From positions 1 through 22,075 of the IMG/VR virus record IMGVR_UViG_3300041414_000097: a stretch of DNA of 22,075 nucleotides; one strand, written 5' to 3'. How positions within the stretch are numbered: position 1 is the first letter of the stretch; each line of letters begins with the position of its first letter. A model generated the notes under the pieces. That model was not told the origin of the DNA and ran no database searches. It was given only the letters and a program-made list of their open reading frames with translations. The stretch comes from a virus. Positions 5,977-22,075 of this stretch are shown in pieces. A program made the position numbers and the translations under genes.

Positions 5977-6720
5977 ATGCAACTCAACTTCGGAGTCGGC
6001 ACCGCCATCGGCAAGCGAACCGACATTGCCAACGCCAAACCGTCCTTCATCGGTGTTCTGCAGGATCTCGAAATTGACTTCGACGTCACGCTCAAGGAAC
6101 TGACCGGTGCATTCAAGATGCCTGTCGATATTGCGCCATCCAGCATGAAGGTGACCGGCAAGGCGAAGTTTGCGCGCATCCAGGGTGCAAGCGTCAACAA
6201 TCTTCTGCTCGGCCAGACGGAAACGGACTCGTCCGGCATTGATATGGCGGTCGCCGAAGCGTTCATCGTACCCGCCAGTTCCCCCTATACCTATCAAGTC
6301 GTGAATCACAGCGGTTTCATCGAAGATCTTGGTGTGTTTTACGCGGCCGGGATGCAACTTCAGCCCACAACGGGCACGCCGACGCAGGGCCAATACTCGA
6401 TCAGCGCCGGCACCTACACATTCGCAGCCGCCGATGAAGGCGCAGCGATGGTTGTCTACTATAGTTATACCGTCGCCAATCTGGTGCAACTCTCGCTTGC
6501 CAACCAATTGATGGGTTCGGGTCCCGTTTTTGAGTTCAATGCCAAACAGGATTATTTCGTGCAGGGCGTCGAGAAAAAGCTGATCATCAAGCTCAATGCC
6601 TGCCGATCATCGAAGTGGTCGTTGCCGTTCAAGAATACCGACTACACGATCCAGGATTTCGAATTTACGGCCTTCGCCGATCCCAACAACAACTGGGGGA
6701 CGTTCGCCTTCAGCGAATGA
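5977..6720 (+). CDS. Major tail tube protein
   Basis: This 247-residue protein probably stacks as hexameric rings to form the non-contractile tail tube. The N-terminal part (SFIGVLQDLEIDFDVTLKEL, then MKVTGKAKFARIQGASVNNL, residues 23-76) and the C-terminal part (NAKQDYFVQGVEKKLIIKLN, then YTIQDFEFTAFAD, about 188-235) are strand-rich and typical of tail tube proteins. They are separated by an insertion at about 97-165 with GQYSISAGTYTFAAADEGA, which is homologous to an insert in the connector protein. Such inserts usually decorate the outside of the tube. GGGAGG at 5961-5966 is placed about 10 bases before the ATG. The neighbours, tail terminator before and chaperone-type proteins and tape measure after, support the role. 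Confidence 0.77.
   Translation: MQLNFGVGTAIGKRTDIANAKPSFIGVLQDLEIDFDVTLKELTGAFKMPVDIAPSSMKVTGKAKFARIQGASVNNLLLGQTETDSSGIDMAVAEAFIVPASSPYTYQVVNHSGFIEDLGVFYAAGMQLQPTTGTPTQGQYSISAGTYTFAAADEGAAMVVYYSYTVANLVQLSLANQLMGSGPVFEFNAKQDYFVQGVEKKLIIKLNACRSSKWSLPFKNTDYTIQDFEFTAFADPNNNWGTFAFSE
6265..6471 (+). repeat. Insert module shared with the connector gene (copy 2)
   Basis: This encodes residues 97-165 of the tail tube protein. It pairs with the module at 4556-4774: both have GQY, then AGxYxF, then D-x-G-A, then a short hydrophobic strand ending in SY. Confidence 0.6.
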
Positions 6721-11442: not shown

Positions 11443-14364
11443 ATGGCAGGTATGTTTTCCAGCGGAACCAACACGCAGGTACCCCGCTACACCCAACTCC
11501 AAGTTCAGACAAGCGCGCAGGGACTGCCCGTTCCCCTCTGCTGGGGCGCGGTGCGCGGCGCCTTCAATCTCATCTGGAATGGCAACTTCAATTCGGAACC
11601 GGTCAGCGGCAAAGGAGGGGGCGGGAAAGGCGGCGCGAAGGGCGGACAACAATACACATATTCGACGGCCTTCATCGGCGGTCTCTGCGAGGGGGCGCTC
11701 ACAGATATGAACACCCTGTTTCCGGATCTGTACCCGAACGCGAACACCTTCATCGGCAGAGTCTGGCGCGACCAGGCGCAGATGACCACGCTATCAAAGT
11801 TGAATGTTATTCCATTTCAAGGCGAGGCTGGCCAATCGACCTGGCCATACCTTGCTTCAAATTTCCCAAGCGAAGCGATTCCGTATTCAGCGCTGGCTTA
11901 CGTCGCATCGTCTAAATACGACCTTGGATACTCTCCGTCCTTGCCGGATCACAGCTTCGAACTGTTCGGCAAGTACTGCGGCTCGTACACGCAGCCGATG
12001 GAACAGTTTACGCCGACTGGAAACATCCAGGTCGCCGTGCAGGGTGGGGCCGTCTACTCGTCGAGCGACTCGTTCTTCGACGGCATTGAGTTCACCTATC
12101 AAGGACCGACCACGAACCCGAGCGCAAATGTCTACCTGTTCACTCCACCCGGACCAGCCGGCACGCGCGGCAGCGGCACGCTTACACTGGTGAGCGGGTC
12201 AGGTCCGACCGCAATTCCATACAGTGCTGCAGAGAACGTCAGCGCGCCTGTTCTCGACGCGAACCCGGCAGACGTGATTGAGGATTTTCTGACGAACCCC
12301 CAATACGCTATCGGTCTGACTTCGGGCGCCATCGACTCGGTAAGTCTGGAGTTCTATCGCACCTACTGTGCTGCGCAAGGATTGTTCATTTCGCCCTTGC
12401 TCTCCGACCAGGAGCAGATGAGTCAGACGATCGACCGTTGGGCATCGATCACCAACACGCTGATCTTTTGGAGCGAGGGTATGCTGAAGTTCGTGCCGCT
12501 GGGCGATTCCGCCATCACCAACACCGGCATTGCACCCAATGTTTCCTTTACGCCGAATCTCTCCGTCGCTTACGGCCTGACCTATGATGATTATATCGAC
12601 AAGGGACACCATGGCCGTTCAGGCGAAGCGGCGCCGCCTCTGCAGGTGACGCGCATCGATCCGGCAGACGCACCCAATCACGTCAAGGTTGAAGTGAAGG
12701 ATCGCGCCAACGCTTACAACACCGCTCCCATAGAGTGGCAGGATCAGGCACTTGTCGACCAATTCGGGCAGATTAACTCCAACGTTACAGATGCTCATGA
12801 GATTTGCAGCATCTCGACGGGAAATATCGTTGCCCAGTTGATCGGGCAGCGACTCGCTTACCAGCGTAATACCTACGCCTTCACGCTGGGGGCGGAATTT
12901 TCCCTGCTCGAGCCTGGCGACATCGTCACGGTTACCGAGCCGCACATTGGCATTTTCAATCAGCCGGTACGCATCAAGACGATCGACGAGGATGACAAAT
13001 ACAATCTGGCGATCACTGCCGAAGAATTTCCGGGAACGCTGGGTACCGCAATCGCACCCGACATCGTCGGTGCGCAGCAATCCGGCGGGGGAACCGGCGG
13101 CTACGATCAATATGTCGATCCGGGCAATGCAAATCCACCCTGCGTGTTCGAACCCAATTCGGCGCTGACGGGAGGAGTTGCGCAGGTCTGGATTTCATTG
13201 AGTGGTGGCGCGAGCTGGGGCGGCAGCATTGTTCTGGTCAGTTTCGACGGGACAAACTACAATCAAATCGGATTCATCACCGCGCCTGCTCCGCAGGGTG
13301 CCACGACTGCGGATCTGCCATCGTTTTCAGGCGCGAACCCTGACACAACCCACACCCTAGCGGTCGACCTCACCGAGTCCGGCGCTGTTCTGCCCACCAA
13401 TGCGACGGACGCAGACGCACAGGCGTATCGTACGCTGTGCTATGTTACGTCGAGCTTCACAGTATCTGACGACGCAGCGACGCTGCCCGACACTGGCGAA
13501 TTGCTCGCCTATGGAAATGTTGCGCAGGGCGCCACGGCCGAGCAGTTCAACATCAGCTATCTCGAACGGGGACTTTATGGAACAGAAGCTCCGGATCATC
13601 CGGAAGGTTCGTTTTTCACCCGCGTGGAGCTCGGTCAGACAGACCCCCCAGGTAATTGTGTGCTGATCTATGATCTGCCGACCCAGTATATCGGCACGAC
13701 GATCTATCTGAAATTCCTCGGCTACAACACCTTCGGCAACGAGCTGCAGGATCCAAGCGACGTTGTTGCATATGCATACACGACGACCGGCGCGGGTTTC
13801 GGTGGCGGCGGGGCCGGAGTACCGATCGAGCCGACAGGATTGACGGCGACGGGCATCCCCGGCGGCATAGCTCTCTCGTGGAACGCGAATCCGCCAACCG
13901 ACAACGTCCTGTACTACGATGTCTACCGGGACGGCCTGTTGATATTCGAGGGTAACGTCACGAACTGGACAGACACGAGCGTGGTTCCTGGCGCTTCGCA
14001 CACCTACGCGGTCGAAGCTGTGAATATCGCCGGAGATTCTGTGCCAAGCGCAAGTGCGACGGCTGCCGCGTCGGCGTCCGTAAACGGCGGCCGCTCCGTC
14101 ACGGTGAGCGCGTCGCCGCTCCCGATCCTGACAAGCGACAATTACGTGGGGGTCACCAACACGAGTGGGGCCGCGTTGGCGATCGATCTACCCTCGACGC
14201 CGGCGACCAATCAGGATGTCCGCCTCGCCGACGAAGGTGGAAACGCCGCCACGTTTAACTGGACAGTCAGGAACACGGGCGGCGCGATAGTCGGCACCGT
14301 CGCGGTCGATGGCGGCGGCATCTCGCTGCATTGGACCGGCGCCGTGTGGCAGCAAGTTTTCTAA
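11443..14364 (+). CDS. Tail tip / host attachment protein with FN3 and C-terminal beta module
   Basis: This 973-residue protein corresponds to the central tip protein of lambda-like and gene-transfer-agent tails (gpJ/gene 15 role). Residues ~1-110 have a Gly/Lys-rich loop (55-68) and the segment YTYSTAFIGGLCEGALTDMN. Residues ~265-535 match the 'phage tail protein 3' pattern: ADVIEDFLTNPQYAIGL, FYRTYCAAQGLFISPLLSDQ, then ALVDQFGQ and LAYQRNTYAFTLGAEFSLLE. A 70-residue beta insertion occupies about 195-262. Residues ~560-790 are beta-rich and include a conserved ERGLYGTEAPDH. A fibronectin-III-like domain covers ~795-880, and residues 883-973 duplicate the C-terminal module of the distal tail protein. 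The 23-base gap to the hydrolase gene and a weak GAGTG precede the ATG. It probably reaches the receptor or cell envelope. Confidence 0.8.
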   Translation: MAGMFSSGTNTQVPRYTQLQVQTSAQGLPVPLCWGAVRGAFNLIWNGNFNSEPVSGKGGGGKGGAKGGQQYTYSTAFIGGLCEGALTDMNTLFPDLYPNANTFIGRVWRDQAQMTTLSKLNVIPFQGEAGQSTWPYLASNFPSEAIPYSALAYVASSKYDLGYSPSLPDHSFELFGKYCGSYTQPMEQFTPTGNIQVAVQGGAVYSSSDSFFDGIEFTYQGPTTNPSANVYLFTPPGPAGTRGSGTLTLVSGSGPTAIPYSAAENVSAPVLDANPADVIEDFLTNPQYAIGLTSGAIDSVSLEFYRTYCAAQGLFISPLLSDQEQMSQTIDRWASITNTLIFWSEGMLKFVPLGDSAITNTGIAPNVSFTPNLSVAYGLTYDDYIDKGHHGRSGEAAPPLQVTRIDPADAPNHVKVEVKDRANAYNTAPIEWQDQALVDQFGQINSNVTDAHEICSISTGNIVAQLIGQRLAYQRNTYAFTLGAEFSLLEPGDIVTVTEPHIGIFNQPVRIKTIDEDDKYNLAITAEEFPGTLGTAIAPDIVGAQQSGGGTGGYDQYVDPGNANPPCVFEPNSALTGGVAQVWISLSGGASWGGSIVLVSFDGTNYNQIGFITAPAPQGATTADLPSFSGANPDTTHTLAVDLTESGAVLPTNATDADAQAYRTLCYVTSSFTVSDDAATLPDTGELLAYGNVAQGATAEQFNISYLERGLYGTEAPDHPEGSFFTRVELGQTDPPGNCVLIYDLPTQYIGTTIYLKFLGYNTFGNELQDPSDVVAYAYTTTGAGFGGGGAGVPIEPTGLTATGIPGGIALSWNANPPTDNVLYYDVYRDGLLIFEGNVTNWTDTSVVPGASHTYAVEAVNIAGDSVPSASATAAASASVNGGRSVTVSASPLPILTSDNYVGVTNTSGAALAIDLPSTPATNQDVRLADEGGNAATFNWTVRNTGGAIVGTVAVDGGGISLHWTGAVWQQVF
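14089..14361 (+). repeat. C-terminal beta module shared with the distal tail gene (copy 2)
   Basis: Residues 883-973 of the tip protein, homologous to residues 238-330 of the product of the gene at 9054. Both copies are at the extreme C-terminus of their protein, which suggests the module moved as a unit. Confidence 0.8.
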
Positions 14365-14433
14365 CGCAAAGCCCGGCGCCGGCCGATCTATCCATTCCCT
14401 ACTCGCCGTTCGCCCTCGTTCGAAAGGACCATC

Positions 14434-16182
14434 ATGAGACATTGGAAACTCGCGGCCGCGATCGCGGTCGTGACAGGCATCGGCACTGCCTGGGCCGGAC
14501 AGGTGCCCAATCCCATCAATGCTGACAACACGATCATCGTCGGTGATTTCCTGCTCGGGAATGGCGCGCAACGCGTGACAGATTCGGGCTGGTCCCTTGT
14601 GCCGATGGCGAAAGGAGGCTGCAACGCCGCGCTGACGGCGACAGCGAACGATCTGCTGTACTCAACATCATCAGGCTGCGCGCTTTTGCCGACGGCGAAC
14701 TCCTCCATCCTCGCGACCAACGGTTCCGGCGCACTGGCGTGGGCAACGTCGCTGCCGGGCGGCATCATGGTTCCCGCCGGAGATTTGCCGCTTCCGACAT
14801 CGACGACGCTCGGCGGGCTGGAAGCGCAGACCTGCGCCGCTCATCAATGGCTCGACGTCATCCCGACAACACAGGTTCAGCCGTCCTGCGCGCAGCCGAC
14901 GTTTTCCGATCTCTCCGGATCGATTGCTGCATCGCAGCTGATTGCGCCGACGACGTCGGCCTTTGGAGGCATCTTTGCAATCGCCTGCCCGTCGCATCAG
15001 TGGATCGAAGTGATCCCGGCATCCGGGACACAACCCACATGCGCGCAGCCGGCGATCACCGATATTTCGGGCATCTCCGCAACGTCGCCGCTCAGCTACT
15101 CCGCAGGTGCGTTCGCGCTGAACATCGGAACCGGCCTGACGACATCGGGCGGCAATCTCGTGCTGGCCACGCCGACGGCAACGACGATCGGGGGTGTGGA
15201 GAGCGTCACCTGTGTCTCGCATCAATGGATCAACCAGGTCACGACAGCCGGCGTTCACAACTGCACACAGCCGGCGTTCTCCGATGTTTCCGGCTCCATC
15301 GCGGCCTCGCAGCTGATCGCGCCGACGACGTCGGCTTTCGGCGGCGTCTACGCGATATCCTGTCCGACCCATCAATGGATCGATGTTATTCCGACGAGCG
15401 GCACGCAGCCCGCCTGCGCGCAGCCGGGCTTCGCCGACGTCTCCGGCTCGCTTGCGCTGTCACAGATGGCGGCGCAAAGCGCCGACACCGTCGACATGAA
15501 CGCGTCCGGATCGAGCGGATCGCCGACCGCCGTGGCGATGCCGACGTCCGGCACAAATGGCTGCGCGGGTTCGTCGAACGCGCTGACCTACAACACTGCA
15601 ACGCATGCGTGGGGCTGCAACACGATCTCGGGCGGCGGGGGCGGTATTTCCGCCGTGACGGGACCCGGATACGTGTCGGGATACTACTACCCGCCGCTCG
15701 GCTCCGGGCAACCCTCCACCGAATCGCTCTCGAGCACAGGAACCATCTACTTCTTCTGGATTCCCGTCACCACCAGCCAGACGTTCACAAAGATCAGCAT
15801 CGATGTCACCACATCTGGCACGGGCAACTGCGAACTCGGAGTTTTCGGCACCACTGCAGGCGAGCCAGGCAATCTGATCGACGACTCCGGAAATGTCTCG
15901 GAAGGCGGCGGCATGCAGACAATATCGGGCCGCTCGATCGCACTTTCGCCGCCTGGCGCATGGGTTGCAATGAATTGCAGCGCGTCGGTCAGCGTCGAAG
16001 GATCTGGAAACGTGGGCGCTGCGGAGTCCCTGATCGGAACCTTTCTCGGATTTTCGAACGGAACGACGGTGGTCGAGGGCTACAAGGAAACCTACGCGTA
16101 CGGCGCGATGCCGTCGTCCGCCAGCAGTCTCACGGCGCTGACGGGTTCCAACGTCACCTACTTCGTTTTCCTCAGTCCGTGA
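14434..16182 (+). CDS. Exported, cysteine-repeat fibre-like protein
   Basis: This 582-residue protein lies between the tip and fibre genes and carries a clear Sec signal peptide: basic MRHWK, a hydrophobic LAAAIAVVTGIGTAW and a likely cleavage after AWA (residue 21). Residues ~122-345 hold four related repeats with the core GGx6CxxHQWI, then CxQP and DxSGS. Cysteine pairs are C134/C152, C185/C203, C260/C277 and C310/C328. Each repeat could hold a disulfide if exported to the periplasm. Residues ~400-405 are a Gly linker. The C-terminal ~175 residues are beta-rich with no family I recognise (YYYPPLGSG, FFWIPVTTSQ). AAAGGA at 14423-14428, 5 bases before the ATG, is the strongest ribosome binding site in the block. 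It could be a secreted virion-associated or cell-surface fibre. Repeats of this style occur in tail-fibre-like proteins, but a signal peptide is odd for one. Confidence 0.6.
   Translation: MRHWKLAAAIAVVTGIGTAWAGQVPNPINADNTIIVGDFLLGNGAQRVTDSGWSLVPMAKGGCNAALTATANDLLYSTSSGCALLPTANSSILATNGSGALAWATSLPGGIMVPAGDLPLPTSTTLGGLEAQTCAAHQWLDVIPTTQVQPSCAQPTFSDLSGSIAASQLIAPTTSAFGGIFAIACPSHQWIEVIPASGTQPTCAQPAITDISGISATSPLSYSAGAFALNIGTGLTTSGGNLVLATPTATTIGGVESVTCVSHQWINQVTTAGVHNCTQPAFSDVSGSIAASQLIAPTTSAFGGVYAISCPTHQWIDVIPTSGTQPACAQPGFADVSGSLALSQMAAQSADTVDMNASGSSGSPTAVAMPTSGTNGCAGSSNALTYNTATHAWGCNTISGGGGGISAVTGPGYVSGYYYPPLGSGQPSTESLSSTGTIYFFWIPVTTSQTFTKISIDVTTSGTGNCELGVFGTTAGEPGNLIDDSGNVSEGGGMQTISGRSIALSPPGAWVAMNCSASVSVEGSGNVGAAESLIGTFLGFSNGTTVVEGYKETYAYGAMPSSASSLTALTGSNVTYFVFLSP
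14797..15468 (+). repeat. Four protein repeats, two of them near-identical at DNA level
   Basis: Repeats start near residues 122, 171, 248 and 298. DNA at 14934-14970 and 15309-15345 agrees at 33 of 37 bases with an offset of 375 bases, and the surrounding ~150 bases also align. A repeat pair of about 125 residues was therefore probably duplicated fairly recently. Confidence 0.75.
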
Positions 16183-16290: not shown

Positions 16291-19200
16291 ATGATTCTGA
16301 TGCTCGCGCCCGCCGCGAACATGCAGTTCGCGTCCATGCCCTCAGGCTCCTCTTACGTCTCCGACGCGGACGGATTGATCACCATTGTGAACAACTCCAC
16401 CGCCGACCAGATCGCGCTGATGGCGGCAGGATGCCGAACGCTGCTTCCGGTGCCACAGGGACTGAACTTCGCGACGCTGGCCGCGCTGTACGCGACGGAC
16501 AACTATGTGGCCGGCACATTTGCACTGGTTTACGCCGATCCGACGAGCGCCAATAATGGCACCTGGGAGAAAACAAGCGGCGGCAACGGAGCCGGCAATT
16601 GGAGTCAGCTGTTCAACTACAGCCTGTCCACCATCTCGGCCGCCGTCGGCGCGGAGACCGCGCGCGCGGAGGCCGCCGAAGCCGCGTTGAGCACGCGCAT
16701 TTCCGAGATCCCATCGGTCAACTTCGGCATCGGGACCTCAGCATCCGGCGGGCCGGTCGTTGCGGCCACGACGGGAGCGCTGCCGTCCAACACCTATGGC
16801 GGCGGCGTTCTCACGGCCACGGCAAACGGCGCGCTTCCCGCGCAGGACGGCGTGACGCTTGCCGCCGGACAACGCCTGCTCGTCAAGAACGAGGCGACGG
16901 CCGCGAACAACGGCCTCTATGTCGTAACGCAGGCGGGCAGCGGTTCAACGCCTTACATTCTTACACGCGCGGGCGACGCGAGCACCGCCTCGCAGCTCGC
17001 AGGCCTCATGGTCGCCGTCCTGCAGGGAGGAACGACGAACGGTGGAACCTACTGGCTGCTGTTCCTGGCCGCGTCCGCAATCACCGTCGGCGCGACGCCG
17101 CTCTATTTCACGCCATTTCCGGTTCCCGCGAGCAGCACGCGGCAACTCGCGGTGAACGGCGTCTTCTGGCTCGGCGCCGCCAATCTGCCCAGCTCTCCCT
17201 CGGTCGGTGACCGCTGGATTCTCGGCTACGGCGACTCCTACTACACCGCCATCGCGCAATGGACGGGCACGTCTTGGATCTATGTCTTTCCGCTCGACGG
17301 CGATCAGGTGTGGAACCAATCGAGCGAAAGCTTCCTGCGCTACAATGCATCGCTGGTGGCGTGGTGCCTGATTCCCGGCGCGACCGAAGCAGCCAACACG
17401 GCACAGGCCACCGCCAACCAGGCCGGCTTCATGAACGCAGCGGCGGATGGATCATGCTATGTGCGGGCGCAGTTTGCGGCGCAGCGCTACCGGCTGGATG
17501 GCGGGCCGGCCGCGGGAGAAAGCAGCGTTGCGATCGTGGCACGCGCATCGTCCGCCGCGAGCTGGCCGCGCGACAACCAGGAACCGGTGGCGCAGTTCAG
17601 CGGAACGGCAACGCGGCGCGACGCCTATGGCGGCCAGGCATGCGAGCGTGCAAGCACGAACTTCATCCAGAACTCCAACATGGCCGGAGCAGCCACGCCG
17701 TCGACATTGCCGACGGACTGGATTCTAAGCAGCGGGGTTACTGCAACCGTAAATGCGGTGAACACGATCAACGGTTATAGCGGCGGGGCGGGATACGTAG
17801 AGTTGGACGTCACATTGTCAGTCGCGTCTCTGGAGTCGGATTCATTCAATATATATTTTCAATCTCCAAAAATCGTTTTGTCGTCTCAAGTTCGAGGGGG
17901 CTGCACCCTCTCCGCCTATATTGGCATAGTGTCCTCCAGTTTCACGGACACGTCCGGCACTTTCTGCGATTTGGCGCTGGACGAGTACTCGAGCGGGGGT
18001 TCGTACATCGGAACGACGATTGGCTACGGTTTTTCGTATCCGACGACAATTGTCCATCGAAGCGTTTTCCGCGCGGTACCATCCGGAAACGGAGTCAGCC
18101 CCTATCTTCGCATCCACTCTGCTGACAATGGAAATCTGGGCACCGGCTCGATCCGTCTCCTCATTGCAATGCCCCAGCTTGAGGACGCTTCGGGAGAATT
18201 CGACTACACCAGCTGGATCCCGACGACATCCGGCAGCGTCAGCCGCAATGCAGAAACCTGTTCGCTCGTCATTCCAGCAGAGTATTCTGGAAGTGCTGAT
18301 GTGTTTCTGCAGCATGAATGGTTCGGCGAGTGGCTTCCCGCGCAGAGTATTTTGTCGGGCACCGTCGGCATCAATCCGGTCGCCACAACGGAAGCAGCGA
18401 CAAACGGCTGGAGCGGCATCGCGGATGCCTATGCGATGCAGACCGGCACTTACGCCGGCAACTGGCAGGCACAGAACGCGTTGGCCGAGGCGCTTTATCC
18501 GACACTCATGGCGCTCCCATTCCCCGGTGAGACTGGCGGTATCGGACAACAACTTCCCGCGCAGTATACTCAGATATGGAATCCCCAGAACAACGCCTAC
18601 TACGGCCTCATGGCGCAAGGGGACGAACAGTTTCAATCGCCGTCGTCCTACGGGTTTCTCCGCGCCGCGAACAAGCTGGGCCTGTTTCAATTCGAAGCCA
18701 GGCCCGGAGACCAGTCCTGGTGGGACATTGCCAATCCGGAATCGCCGCCTGTCTGCCATCTGCAACTGGCCGCACAAACCGGCCCGGCATCCGCCTTCGC
18801 GACAAACGCCACCGTCTGGGGTTCATTCGCGTTCGAGCTTCTGGGTGCGTTGCCCATGTCGGGCGCCGTATGGACGACGAACGATTTCTGCGTTCTGAAC
18901 GAGTTGCACCAGGAGGGCCCGGGAGGCATCGGGCCGTCCGGGCCGTTCCAGTTCGTGCTGCTGCCTGGAGACTTCCTGGGCGTCAATGCATTTTCGAATA
19001 CCAACGTTCACACCAGTACTGCGCGCATCTGGACATCTCCCGCGCCACTCTCGCGCGGACTGGGACAGTGGCATCGCTGCGTCTACACCGTGACGTTCAC
19101 GCCGAGCGGAACAGGGAATGCCAATATCAGCGTCTGGGTCGATGGCGCCGAAGTAATAACCAGTCTCGATGTTCCGTGCGGCTACTCGGACGCGACGGGG

Positions 19201-19329
19201 TATTTTCATATCTTTTGCCTGTATCGGCAGGCGGATAACCCGAATGATGAAATCATCCGATTTGCAAACCAGGAATGCGGGATATCGAGCTTGGCAAATC
19301 GGACCACGTCGCCGCTGCCAATAGCCTAA
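16291..19329 (+). CDS. Modular tail fibre/spike with C-terminal polysaccharide-lyase-like domain
   Basis: This 1012-residue protein is probably the receptor-binding fibre or depolymerase spike. Residues 1-145 form the virion-attachment part, with an Ala/Glu helix (AETARAEAAEAALSTRI). Residues ~155-275 are a common fibre module (DGVTLAAGQRLLVKNEATAA, then NNGLYVVTQAG). Residues ~298-362 resemble DUF2793 (PSSPSVGDRWILGYG). Residues ~450-645 look like a carbohydrate-binding beta-sandwich (FIQNSNMAGAATPSTLPTDW, then DYTSWIPTTSG). Residues ~790-995 match the polysaccharide lyase pattern of the heparinase I/alginate-lyase jelly roll: LFQFEARPGDQSWWD, then FCVLNELHQEG, WHRCVYTVTF, ISVWVDGAEV and YFHIFCLYRQ. 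GGAG at 16281-16284 precedes the ATG by 6 bases. The stop overlaps that of the convergent methyltransferase gene. The lyase call comes from pattern memory, and the exact catalytic residues are not identified. Confidence 0.75.
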   Translation: MILMLAPAANMQFASMPSGSSYVSDADGLITIVNNSTADQIALMAAGCRTLLPVPQGLNFATLAALYATDNYVAGTFALVYADPTSANNGTWEKTSGGNGAGNWSQLFNYSLSTISAAVGAETARAEAAEAALSTRISEIPSVNFGIGTSASGGPVVAATTGALPSNTYGGGVLTATANGALPAQDGVTLAAGQRLLVKNEATAANNGLYVVTQAGSGSTPYILTRAGDASTASQLAGLMVAVLQGGTTNGGTYWLLFLAASAITVGATPLYFTPFPVPASSTRQLAVNGVFWLGAANLPSSPSVGDRWILGYGDSYYTAIAQWTGTSWIYVFPLDGDQVWNQSSESFLRYNASLVAWCLIPGATEAANTAQATANQAGFMNAAADGSCYVRAQFAAQRYRLDGGPAAGESSVAIVARASSAASWPRDNQEPVAQFSGTATRRDAYGGQACERASTNFIQNSNMAGAATPSTLPTDWILSSGVTATVNAVNTINGYSGGAGYVELDVTLSVASLESDSFNIYFQSPKIVLSSQVRGGCTLSAYIGIVSSSFTDTSGTFCDLALDEYSSGGSYIGTTIGYGFSYPTTIVHRSVFRAVPSGNGVSPYLRIHSADNGNLGTGSIRLLIAMPQLEDASGEFDYTSWIPTTSGSVSRNAETCSLVIPAEYSGSADVFLQHEWFGEWLPAQSILSGTVGINPVATTEAATNGWSGIADAYAMQTGTYAGNWQAQNALAEALYPTLMALPFPGETGGIGQQLPAQYTQIWNPQNNAYYGLMAQGDEQFQSPSSYGFLRAANKLGLFQFEARPGDQSWWDIANPESPPVCHLQLAAQTGPASAFATNATVWGSFAFELLGALPMSGAVWTTNDFCVLNELHQEGPGGIGPSGPFQFVLLPGDFLGVNAFSNTNVHTSTARIWTSPAPLSRGLGQWHRCVYTVTFTPSGTGNANISVWVDGAEVITSLDVPCGYSDATGYFHIFCLYRQADNPNDEIIRFANQECGISSLANRTTSPLPIA

Positions 19330-20324
19330 CGTTTCTCGATCACCAAATCCAAATTCGGATCAAAAAATCCGTCGTGAACCCCGGCATGAACGACCTTGAG
19401 AATGGCTTTGTATCGCCGATCCAGTACTGAGGTGCGCAGTCGTCTCACAATTCCCTGGTAGGCTGACAGACTGCTGACGACGTGAAGGTTTTGGACCCTG
19501 TCGATCGCGATATCAAACTCGTGAAAACTCACCCCCCGCCCTCGTCGCAGAAAATGATCTTCCGATGACGCGTCGCGTAGCCGGTACAGATTGTTGAAAT
19601 TCTGCCGCGGACTGAACTGCGAATATTCGAATGCGAGCTCGTCCGGCAACCAGTGAAAAAATGGCAATCGGGACGTATGTTCGTCGAAGTACCAAAGACG
19701 ATTCGGGGTTTCAACTATTGCGAGCGCGCCTCCAGTGCGTAGCGCCGTCCAGGCCGAGCGCAGGGCACGTAACCTCTCCGCAATCGTCATGTGCTCAAGA
19801 GATGCGAAAAACACGATGACGTCGAACGCATCAGCGCCGAAGGACTCAGCGATGTCTTCGGCGCGTAATGCTATAACCTCAGCGTCAACGTCATAGATAC
19901 GGCAACGATCACATGCGACCCGCAGTGCATCTTCGTCGATATCGATTCCAATGACTTTCGCGCCTTGTTCGGCCAGCGCAACCGTGGAAGAACCCGTGCC
20001 GCATCCGATTTCGAGTATCTTTTTTCCAGGCAGCGAACAAACGCTGTCCAGCCACGGAATGTTGGTGGTTCTATCAAGTTCCAGTCTCTTGTACAGATGA
20101 TCTTCAAGATCGGAGCGATAGGAATCCGGCGAATAGGTGGATTCGGCCCTCCATCCGGTGTGATAGTTCAGCCGGATCGATTTTTCGACGAGCGCCAGGT
20201 CAGTTACGCCGATCTGCTTTTGGTTTTTTGACAGGCGAACAGGCACAGGGGAAAGCACCTGTCGCACCGCTTTTTTCAGGGATCGAAGATTGTCGCTGAT
20301 CATCCTGAGCGCGCCATCCCACAC
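19326..20324 (-). CDS. SAM-dependent class I methyltransferase (first of two)
   Basis: This 332-residue protein has a class I methyltransferase core: motif I ILEIGCGTG at 103-111, the acidic residue D128 in VIGIDIDEDAL, and the later strand DVIVFFASLEHM at about 168-179. An upstream helical region and a C-terminal half (WYFDEHTSRLPFFHWLPDE) resemble methyltransferases of surface-glycan loci, which methylate sugars. The substrate cannot be read from the sequence. Its 3' end overlaps the tail fibre gene by four bases (stop codons share 19327-19328). A GTG at 20324 gives the full frame, and an in-frame ATG at 20303 is an alternative. No convincing ribosome binding site precedes the GTG. It lies 15 bases after the end of the next methyltransferase, so the two probably form an operon. 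Confidence 0.75.
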   Translation of the reverse strand: MWDGALRMISDNLRSLKKAVRQVLSPVPVRLSKNQKQIGVTDLALVEKSIRLNYHTGWRAESTYSPDSYRSDLEDHLYKRLELDRTTNIPWLDSVCSLPGKKILEIGCGTGSSTVALAEQGAKVIGIDIDEDALRVACDRCRIYDVDAEVIALRAEDIAESFGADAFDVIVFFASLEHMTIAERLRALRSAWTALRTGGALAIVETPNRLWYFDEHTSRLPFFHWLPDELAFEYSQFSPRQNFNNLYRLRDASSEDHFLRRGRGVSFHEFDIAIDRVQNLHVVSSLSAYQGIVRRLRTSVLDRRYKAILKVVHAGVHDGFFDPNLDLVIEKR

Positions 20325-20339
20325 TTCGAGTCCGCAGGT

Positions 20340-21302
20340 CTAAGTAGGTTTTCTTGCCTGTATAAATCCGCCAGACGTGTGGACATCTTCTTCAGTATAA
20401 GCCTGCCACTGTCGGCATAATTGTTTATGTGCAAGCGTGGGCTCTGCAGTCAATCGTTCGGACACCAATATCTCGAAGCCGGCGAGTTCCACCTCTTCTA
20501 CGATCCGCGAGTGCGGCAAGCGATTGATCATGAACGGCCTGGCGCCGACCACGACTTCCCATGTTGACGCGCCAAACGTTCGATGGCCGTCCCATGAACG
20601 CATTATGCCGTGAGAGCTGAGATCGTATTGGTGCGACATCAGCCCGCCGGGCCTCAGCCAGCGATGGGCCGACTGTAGCGTCGAGCGAATGTCGGTAACA
20701 TGTTCAAGCACGGAGTGTGAAATTACAAAATCTACACTCTCTTCTCTCACTTGGGCTGCTGAAAACGGAGCACAATAATCGATAAACGGAGTCTCGGATT
20801 CTCCTCCCATTGTCACCCGCCCCACGTCCCGAATAATGGAAGCTACCCTGTCTGGCTCGACCATCCTGCTCAAAACAGAGTCATCGAGAATGGCCGACGG
20901 AAATCCTTTACTATCGAGCAGATATCCGAAATCTGGCCAACCATTGACTTCAACCCGAACCCGTCGTCGAAAAAGCTCGAACAGGCCTTGCGCGACGTTC
21001 ACCGCATAGCAGTTGGCAGCGTACGGAATTGTATCCACGCCAATATATCGCTCGGCGCCACTCAGCAGGGCTGCAACGCCAACGCCCAGGGTGTCACCAG
21101 GACCAAGCTCCGCAATGATCCGGGGAACGCCGCAGTGGACTGTTCTGTTCAGGAGCGTAAGGTGTTTCAGCCATACGCCATATGAGTACTCTGCGCGCAC
21201 CGCTTCGCTGAGATTCATGTGGCGTTGACGGAACAGAGGATAGACCCCCGGAACATAGGTTGTCGCGCCTTTCAGAAGCGCAATACACGCATCAATTTTC
21301 AT
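20340..21302 (-). CDS. SAM-dependent methyltransferase (second), glycan type
   Basis: This 320-residue methyltransferase has the glycine-rich motif IAELGPGDTLG (63-73), the acidic YIGVD (86-90), and the type 11 segment VDFVISHSVLEHV (190-202), followed by LRPGGLMSHQYDL (216-228). The last two are typical of methyltransferases from O-antigen or exopolysaccharide clusters. A ~100-residue region between them (about 91-188) is longer than in minimal methyltransferases and may hold a substrate lid. The ATG at 21302 has no strong ribosome binding site. It is upstream in transcription order of the other methyltransferase gene and is likely co-transcribed with it. G+C is lower than in the phage genes: 24 of 60 at 20341-20400, against 47 of 60 at 16621-16680. 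Confidence 0.75.
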   Translation of the reverse strand: MKIDACIALLKGATTYVPGVYPLFRQRHMNLSEAVRAEYSYGVWLKHLTLLNRTVHCGVPRIIAELGPGDTLGVGVAALLSGAERYIGVDTIPYAANCYAVNVAQGLFELFRRRVRVEVNGWPDFGYLLDSKGFPSAILDDSVLSRMVEPDRVASIIRDVGRVTMGGESETPFIDYCAPFSAAQVREESVDFVISHSVLEHVTDIRSTLQSAHRWLRPGGLMSHQYDLSSHGIMRSWDGHRTFGASTWEVVVGARPFMINRLPHSRIVEEVELAGFEILVSERLTAEPTLAHKQLCRQWQAYTEEDVHTSGGFIQARKPT

Positions 21303-21535
21303 CGCCGCAACATTTTCATTGGCATGCGCTCAACCTTCGAGGAGCATAGAACAACACGACAGTGCCAGCAGACTGAAGCAGCCGCACGAATGCTACCGTT
21401 TTTCGGCCGACCGCTCGCCGAGCCGCCTCCAATGCGGAAATACTTACCTCGTGTTCGGTTTGAGCTCCAGTCCCAGACGTGACCAATGCGAACGACAAAC
21501 TTTCACACACGCGAGTCAGGGGGGCGTGACCGTCC
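21303..21535 (-). other. Intergenic stretch between acyltransferase and methyltransferase
   Basis: This 233-base stretch has no convincing gene on either strand. It may contain the promoter of the methyltransferase pair, but I see no clear -35/-10 boxes and no terminator hairpin with a T-run. Confidence 0.35.
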
Positions 21536-22075
21536 CTAGCGGGGTTGTGTGATTCGCCTGGTAGCAAGTGACAGGCGATCGAATTGCGTCTGTACTGATG
21601 CGATAATCGTCCTGCGTCTGGCCAACACCTGAGATTCTACCAAATGCCATGATAGGCTGGCGAACAGGAGCGCAACGGCTAGCGAAGTTCCAAAATTGAA
21701 CCACGTATTGTTCAGGGTCGGAAACGCGTACATCACTGTTTGCTGGACAGGATACCCGTATAGATAAACACCGTAGGAATAGTCACCTGTTGCCGTAACG
21801 AACGTTTTCCTAAAATCCGTCAGGCCGAGAAATACTGTGCAGTACGCGACCGGGAAGCTTGCAGCATACTGATAGGTGCCGTTCCACAGAAGCGCGTAGG
21901 ATGCAACCGAACACCCTATAAATATGGGAAAGTTCAGCGGGAGCAGGTCTCTGTAGAGGAATATCGCCACGCCGGCCAAGAATGAAATCAGTAGCGTGTT
22001 GAGGCTCACGCCTGCAAAAAGCGGCAATCCAGCGCTGTGGTTGTGGGCAGACATGAAAAGCGAAAGCGTCAAGAT
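21536..22075 (-). CDS. Acyltransferase 3 family membrane protein, C-terminal part (gene cut by window edge)
   Basis: The frame is open to the right edge, so the start and the N-terminal half lie outside. The visible ~180 residues contain several hydrophobic segments (LNTLLISFLAGVAIFLY, FIGCSVASYALLW, TSLAVALLFASLSW). They also contain the C-terminal signature GDYSYGVYLYGYPVQQTV and the ending SWHLVES, both typical of acyltransferase 3 (OafA/NodX-type) enzymes that O-acetylate surface polysaccharides. The catalytic His/Arg region would be in the missing part. The last residues are basic (RRRTII, RRITQPR), as expected for a cytoplasmic tail. It is on the same strand as the two methyltransferases, which suggests one glycan-modification locus. 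Confidence 0.8.
   Translation of the reverse strand: MLTLSLFMSAHNHSAGLPLFAGVSLNTLLISFLAGVAIFLYRDLLPLNFPIFIGCSVASYALLWNGTYQYAASFPVAYCTVFLGLTDFRKTFVTATGDYSYGVYLYGYPVQQTVMYAFPTLNNTWFNFGTSLAVALLFASLSWHLVESQVLARRRTIIASVQTQFDRLSLATRRITQPR

Follow-up and report, generated by a model that had tools for sequence, protein, structure and literature searches.

A predicted Sec-exported, fibre-like protein with paired cysteines encoded between the tail tip and tailspike genes of an uncultivated phage

It is generally taken for granted that tailed phages produce and assemble their fibres in the cytoplasm, and the locus described here raises the question of what a fibre-like product of a late operon might do if it is instead sent out through the Sec pathway. 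The window (the whole stretch of DNA analysed, i.e. a 22,075-base IMG/VR virus record that represents a 22-kb fragment) carries, in order, a portal, a putative head protease, phrog_13692, connector genes, DUF2460, a Gp84-type hub, NlpC/P60, a J-like tail tip protein, the gene of interest (P0001) and a putative tailspike; its tail genes form a module of GTA/phiJL001 type. The window J protein is related to J of cultured Brevundimonas, Acinetobacter and Pseudomonas phages, and as these are phages of Gram-negative hosts a periplasm is expected in the host of the window phage. P0001 lies on the same strand as the late tail genes and is tightly spaced with them, and no sigma-70-like promoter was found around it. 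The features to which the following text refers are:

11443 to 14364, plus strand: J-like tail tip protein, upstream of P0001 (Phage-tail_3; Rcc01698_C below cutoff)
14422 to 14428, plus strand: ribosome binding site GAAAGGA of P0001, predicted anti-SD pairing -9.5 kcal/mol
14434 to 16182, plus strand: gene P0001, fibre-like protein, predicted to be exported, 582 residues, ATG start
14434 to 14496, plus strand: predicted Sec type I signal peptide, residues 1-21 of P0001, predicted cleavage between AWA and GQ (rule-based score)
14620 to 14679, plus strand: Cys pair 63/82
14833 to 14889, plus strand: HQW repeat 1, Cys 134/152
14986 to 15042, plus strand: HQW repeat 2, Cys 185/203 (close match in viral contig locus L024)
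15211 to 15264, plus strand: HQW repeat 3, Cys 260/277
15361 to 15417, plus strand: HQW repeat 4, Cys 310/328
15562 to 15618, plus strand: Cys pair 377/395 (similar Cys-containing motif in locus L035)
15631 to 16179, plus strand: C-terminal domain, predicted to be beta-rich, Cys 466/515 (weak match to phrog_25864, low-confidence model)
16291 to 19329, plus strand: putative tailspike, 1012 residues, downstream of P0001 (weak C-terminal polysaccharide-lyase match)

The minus strand adjoining the tailspike (19326 to 22075) holds two methyltransferases and an O-acetyltransferase-like gene at a lower GC content (53.6%), which are possibly surface-modification genes. In the J protein of the window, a C-terminal segment (residues 864-972) matches stretches that lie upstream of J in two viral contig loci (L158:4273-4575 and L159:1484-1984), as if this were a module moved between tail genes.

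P0001 begins with MRHWKLAAAIAVVTGIGTAWA, followed beyond the predicted cleavage site by GQVPNP, and on a rule-based assessment combines the elements of a Sec type I signal peptide, i.e. a positively charged n-region, a hydrophobic core and small residues at -3 and -1 (A-x-A), with no lipobox, the AWA-GQ cleavage site being without Cys. Signal calls for P0001 and for the family described below were made with a simple rule-based score, not SignalP; when the 40 N-terminal residues of P0001 were shuffled 5000 times its score was reached in 7 cases, and amongst the 19 window ORFs tested P0001 alone had a signal-like N-terminus, which bears out the original prediction of a complete Sec signal peptide. 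The same prediction had credited P0001 with the best ribosome binding site nearby, and its calculated pairing energy (-9.5 kcal/mol) is indeed stronger than those of both neighbours (-4.7 and -6.6) and ranks second amongst 15 starts in the window, behind the start at 5977 (-10.2).

All four of the C...HQW...C repeats that had been proposed for P0001 were found, each with its Cys pair (CxxHQW-x11/12-C, HQW at residues 137, 188, 263 and 313), the second Cys following HQW by 12 residues in three copies and by 11 in one. Beyond those already reported, P0001 contains six further Cys in three local pairs (63/82, 377/395 and 466/515), and its 14 Cys all fall within seven such pairs. An even number of mature Cys and the co-inheritance of pairs, which are marks of DsbA-type periplasmic oxidation, are both found in P0001 and its family. 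A metal-site reading of the C..HQ..C arrangement was rejected, as the HQ is conserved in repeats that have neither Cys.

A search for homologues in the late operons of other phages had been suggested as a check, and at the level of the repeat it was productive. A scan for HQ[WF]...QPxFxDxxG, made without regard to Cys, located 78 loci in viral contigs, nearly all of them real on translation, with a consensus of roughly TLGGVxSxxAVSHQWINxISTxGVPxxxQPAFxDISG. To judge from these sequences the HQW repeat is a widespread phage-fibre repeat that is not private to P0001, which itself has the fibre-type shaft repeats by which a virion tail fibre would be recognised. Since the repeat is also carried by proteins that have no signal peptide, its fold should not depend on export, and the C-terminal modules of some signal-bearing HQW proteins likewise recur in proteins without a signal. 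When the whole P0001 protein was used as the query, viral contigs, phages and GTDB genomes all gave no match, the divergence of the repeats being too great for the patterns used; by tblastn the repeat was absent from 50,697 phage records and had no match in plasmids, and the only match amongst 289 genomes belonging to one class was weak and lay in an unrelated bacterial region. A further 39 pattern matches in genome_contigs were set aside as chance, the full repeat being present in none.

The distribution of the two Cys across these repeats is informative. Amongst 93 distinct repeats from the Cys-blind scan, 92 contain neither Cys and one contains both, and most copies have small or hydrophobic residues at the positions that are Cys in P0001. 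A scan in which only the first Cys was fixed returned 14 loci, and fixing only the second returned the same 14 together with one extra that is not a real repeat; this co-occurrence likewise holds at the 12-residue spacing found in three of the four P0001 repeats. The two residues thus appear to be gained and lost together, as would be expected of a disulfide, in what we estimate to be about ten to twelve independent lineages, because some of the loci are near-identical contigs. Other co-occurring Cys pairs are found elsewhere in the repeat, i.e. QCPxPSxSTIGC (L022, L046 and, in similar form, L040) and CDxTGxC (L060, L081). In L129 (6298-7674, minus strand) and L131 a connector-like protein (MPLQAQQ...) continues without a break into a hydrophobic stretch and an HQW repeat that has a Cys pair; this connector-like protein is separate in L067, and the L129 and L131 ORFs look like two fused genes.

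With one start chosen per ORF, signal-like N-termini were called in 36 of 71 HQW-repeat ORFs versus 47 of 556 other ORFs at the same loci (Fisher p 1e-16), i.e. in about half of the HQW proteins as against 8% of the remainder and 3% of shuffled N-termini. These N-termini occur in diverse members and differ in sequence whilst sharing the same tripartite design; several of the 47 signal-bearing ORFs of the comparison group are neighbours of HQW genes and themselves look like candidates for further exported fibre proteins. The mature Cys number, where not zero, was even in 43 signal-bearing HQW proteins and odd in one, which is an internal false call, whereas the even to odd ratios without a signal were 13:14 for HQW proteins and 181:243 for other ORFs. 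After redundancy removal, which was coverage-based as single-linkage clustering lumped the family through its shared repeats and was dropped, the ratios were 39-41:1 for signal-bearing and 10-11:12 for non-signal proteins (p about 4e-6), and the parity held each time that the signal rule was varied (thresholds of 4.0 to 4.5, with one Glu allowed in one run). Signal-bearing HQW proteins have between 0 and 46 Cys, and as the HQW pair accounts for only 34 of the 377 Cys in this set the parity is not a mere recount of the repeat; since signals were called without Cys counts, signal and parity are for the most part independent evidence. By automatic calls, signal-bearing proteins showed no significant enrichment of the HQW Cys pair as such (11 of 14 versus 34 of 64, p 0.13), although of the three signal-less exceptions two (L134 and L024) have a signal by eye and under a slightly relaxed rule, and the third (L129) is the fusion described above.

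It is established that the exported proteins of Gram-negative bacteria tend to have even numbers of Cys (PMC7678975). As even parity is in this sense a signature of exported, disulfide-bonded proteins, the export of P0001 is well supported, and the enrichment of signals in the family, the inheritance of the Cys pair as a unit and the restriction of even parity to signal-bearing members together uphold the proposal of export with periplasmic disulfides; we consider it very probable that P0001 is exported and disulfide-bonded.

Comparison of relatives indicates that P0001 is an accessory gene at the site between J and the tailspike. A scan with the J alignment gave 80 loci. In two of these (L160 and L162, J about 60% identical) a homologue of the tailspike, conserved in its N-terminal part, directly follows J after 114 and 92 nucleotides, respectively, and P0001 is absent; the contig of the nearest relative (L158, J 91-92% identical) ends inside J. 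Conversely, L133 (DUF2460-Gp84-NlpC-J) and L137 (NlpC-J) encode a signal-bearing CxxHQW..C protein downstream of J in the same orientation. No signal-bearing fibre gene follows J in the annotated cultured relatives (Brevundimonas, Acinetobacter), in which small genes and lysis genes occupy this position. Across the 80 loci, signal-like ORFs on the same strand numbered 22 of 180 downstream of J versus 3 of 235 upstream, although holins or spurious ORFs probably account for part of the 22.

For the C-terminal domain of P0001 a weak match to phrog_25864 (unknown function, E 2e-4) was the sole likeness found, with no confident homologue or fold; a search for phrog_25864 in three genomes and controls found nothing. 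Accordingly, receptor binding by P0001 is suggested by its architecture. No Pfam match was obtained across the whole protein, with no YadA-type anchor or autotransporter domain recognised, and the N-terminus, where a tail-attachment domain would be expected, had no match to the Pfam and PHROG families, which are incomplete. Modelled alone the C-terminal domain was unusable (pLDDT 44). A model of two repeats (pLDDT 74, pTM 0.37) contained a hairpin, which suggests that each HQW repeat may form a beta-hairpin; Cys-Cys distances were unreadable in this model, and no fold match to it was found.

We favour, with a probability of roughly 0.5, the reading that P0001 is an accessory, Sec-exported and oxidised fibre-like receptor-binding protein that works in free form, as a blocker or decoy, and is not a fibre that every virion must carry. 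The comparative case for this comprises the predicted signal peptide, paired Cys, even parity, accessory status and fibre-type repeats; the ligand binding, the localisation after export and the blocking role are what we infer from it. In such a mechanism the infected cell would export P0001, as a product of the late operon, via Sec, the signal would be cut after Ala21 to leave a mature chain of 561 residues, and oxidation in the periplasm would allow one disulfide to clamp each HQW hairpin of about 50 residues, giving a rigid shaft of fibre repeats with a beta-rich C-terminal end. The C-terminal domain would probably bind LPS or an outer-membrane protein as its ligand at the surface, and the free protein could then block receptors, either from the periplasm or once released by lysis, with superinfection exclusion or the protection of progeny from debris as the outcome. 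If export is granted, we put the free blocker at about even odds and a virion fibre that assembles after export clearly lower; the former is favoured because the gene is dispensable, because an exported protein is no longer present where virions are assembled and because there is a precedent in Llp of phage T5.

The suggestion that P0001 is not a classical fibre stands in part: the gene is not essential, being missing from L160 and L162, but the contrast was drawn too sharply, as the shaft repeat and, in other members of the class, some C-terminal modules are fibre-like. These same features, and the position of P0001 between J and the tailspike in a late operon, are what would be expected of a virion fibre matured in the periplasm, i.e. 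one that is exported, oxidised and joined to tails at lysis as an extra receptor-binding appendage; however, no tail-attachment domain is recognised downstream of the signal sequence, it would be unusual for assembly to be divided between two compartments, and the gene is accessory in relatives, so that we regard this, although the main rival account, as rather unlikely. Were P0001 instead an ordinary cytoplasmic virion fibre with a hydrophobic N-terminus that mimics a signal peptide, its location and its possession of a repeat common to non-signal proteins would follow readily, but not the confinement of even Cys parity to signal-bearing members, the placing of every Cys of P0001 in a local pair, or the recurrence of one tripartite design on differing N-terminal sequences in diverse members, and this explanation appears very improbable. 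A host-surface factor, by which P0001 would be displayed on the host like an adhesin, either by a prophage in lysogenic conversion or during infection, would suit an accessory gene on a contig whose minus-strand methyltransferase and O-acetyltransferase-like genes suggest surface modification; set against this, no surface anchor (YadA anchor, lipobox or autotransporter domain) is recognised in P0001, and its tight spacing with late tail genes on the same strand, with no sigma-70-like promoter of its own, renders this account improbable.

Viewed against known systems, P0001 resembles phage tail fibres and receptor-binding proteins in its late-operon location beside J and the tailspike, its tandem shaft repeats (the HQW...QPxFxDxSG unit of about 50 residues being common to many fibre-like phage ORFs) and its variable C-terminus, and differs from them in its predicted Sec signal peptide, its paired, even Cys, its accessory status and the lack of a recognised tail-attachment domain. 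Prophage-encoded trimeric autotransporter adhesins, e.g. the Eib proteins, are also phage-carried, exported and fibrous, but have a C-terminal YadA-type outer-membrane anchor of which none was found in P0001. The T5 Llp/Cor superinfection-exclusion lipoproteins are likewise phage-encoded, and share with P0001 the periplasmic export and disulfide that are predicted for the latter; Llp, which is small and contains a Cys11-Cys58 disulfide, halts adsorption to infected cells and debris (PMC9586334), whereas the free blocker proposed here has no lipobox, 561 residues when mature, and fibre repeats. Purified gp38 of vB_EcoM_SD286 provides an example of a free receptor-binding protein that blocks adsorption (PMC12946066), although it lacks the signal peptide predicted for P0001.

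These comparisons, in which dozens of other uncultivated phages show the same features, suggest a little-noticed class of putatively exported phage fibres with the potential to bind or block receptors of the host. We tentatively propose the term exofibres for Sec-exported, disulfide-bonded fibre-like proteins, encoded by accessory late-operon genes, often in strings of two or three, in several uncultivated tailed-phage lineages, for which host Sec and disulfide machinery would be used to make receptor-binding fibres outside the cytoplasm, acting as free blockers or joining virions after lysis. A literature search that covered few subscription papers and no preprints found no account of fibre-like proteins exported through Sec as a class in phages. 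If correct, this would add a new compartment to phage receptor biology and would provide a mechanism, based on fibres, by which superinfection is excluded or progeny are protected from debris, and infection could depend on host disulfide-forming enzymes. A Klebsiella screen picked out dsbA as a host factor of seven phages, with an effect that was weak and unexplained and for which the authors favoured host surface-protein effects (PMC13412088); nothing ties that result to exported HQW proteins.

Closely spaced strings of two or three signal-bearing fibre-like ORFs were observed in the late regions of L021, L057, L067, L125, L129, L221 and L235. An HQW protein of about 2200 residues in L039 (2254-8922, minus strand), called as non-signal, starts with a sequence resembling a lipobox (FLILVLASC) and contains 37 Cys, an even 36 without the lipid-linked one, and is possibly an exported lipoprotein fibre. 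Finally, the complete circular podovirus MW202898 (L150:3359-6112) encodes a late protein of 918 residues, annotated as a caprin-2 domain protein, which has a signal-like hydrophobic start and 6 Cys and is a candidate for another exported fibre.
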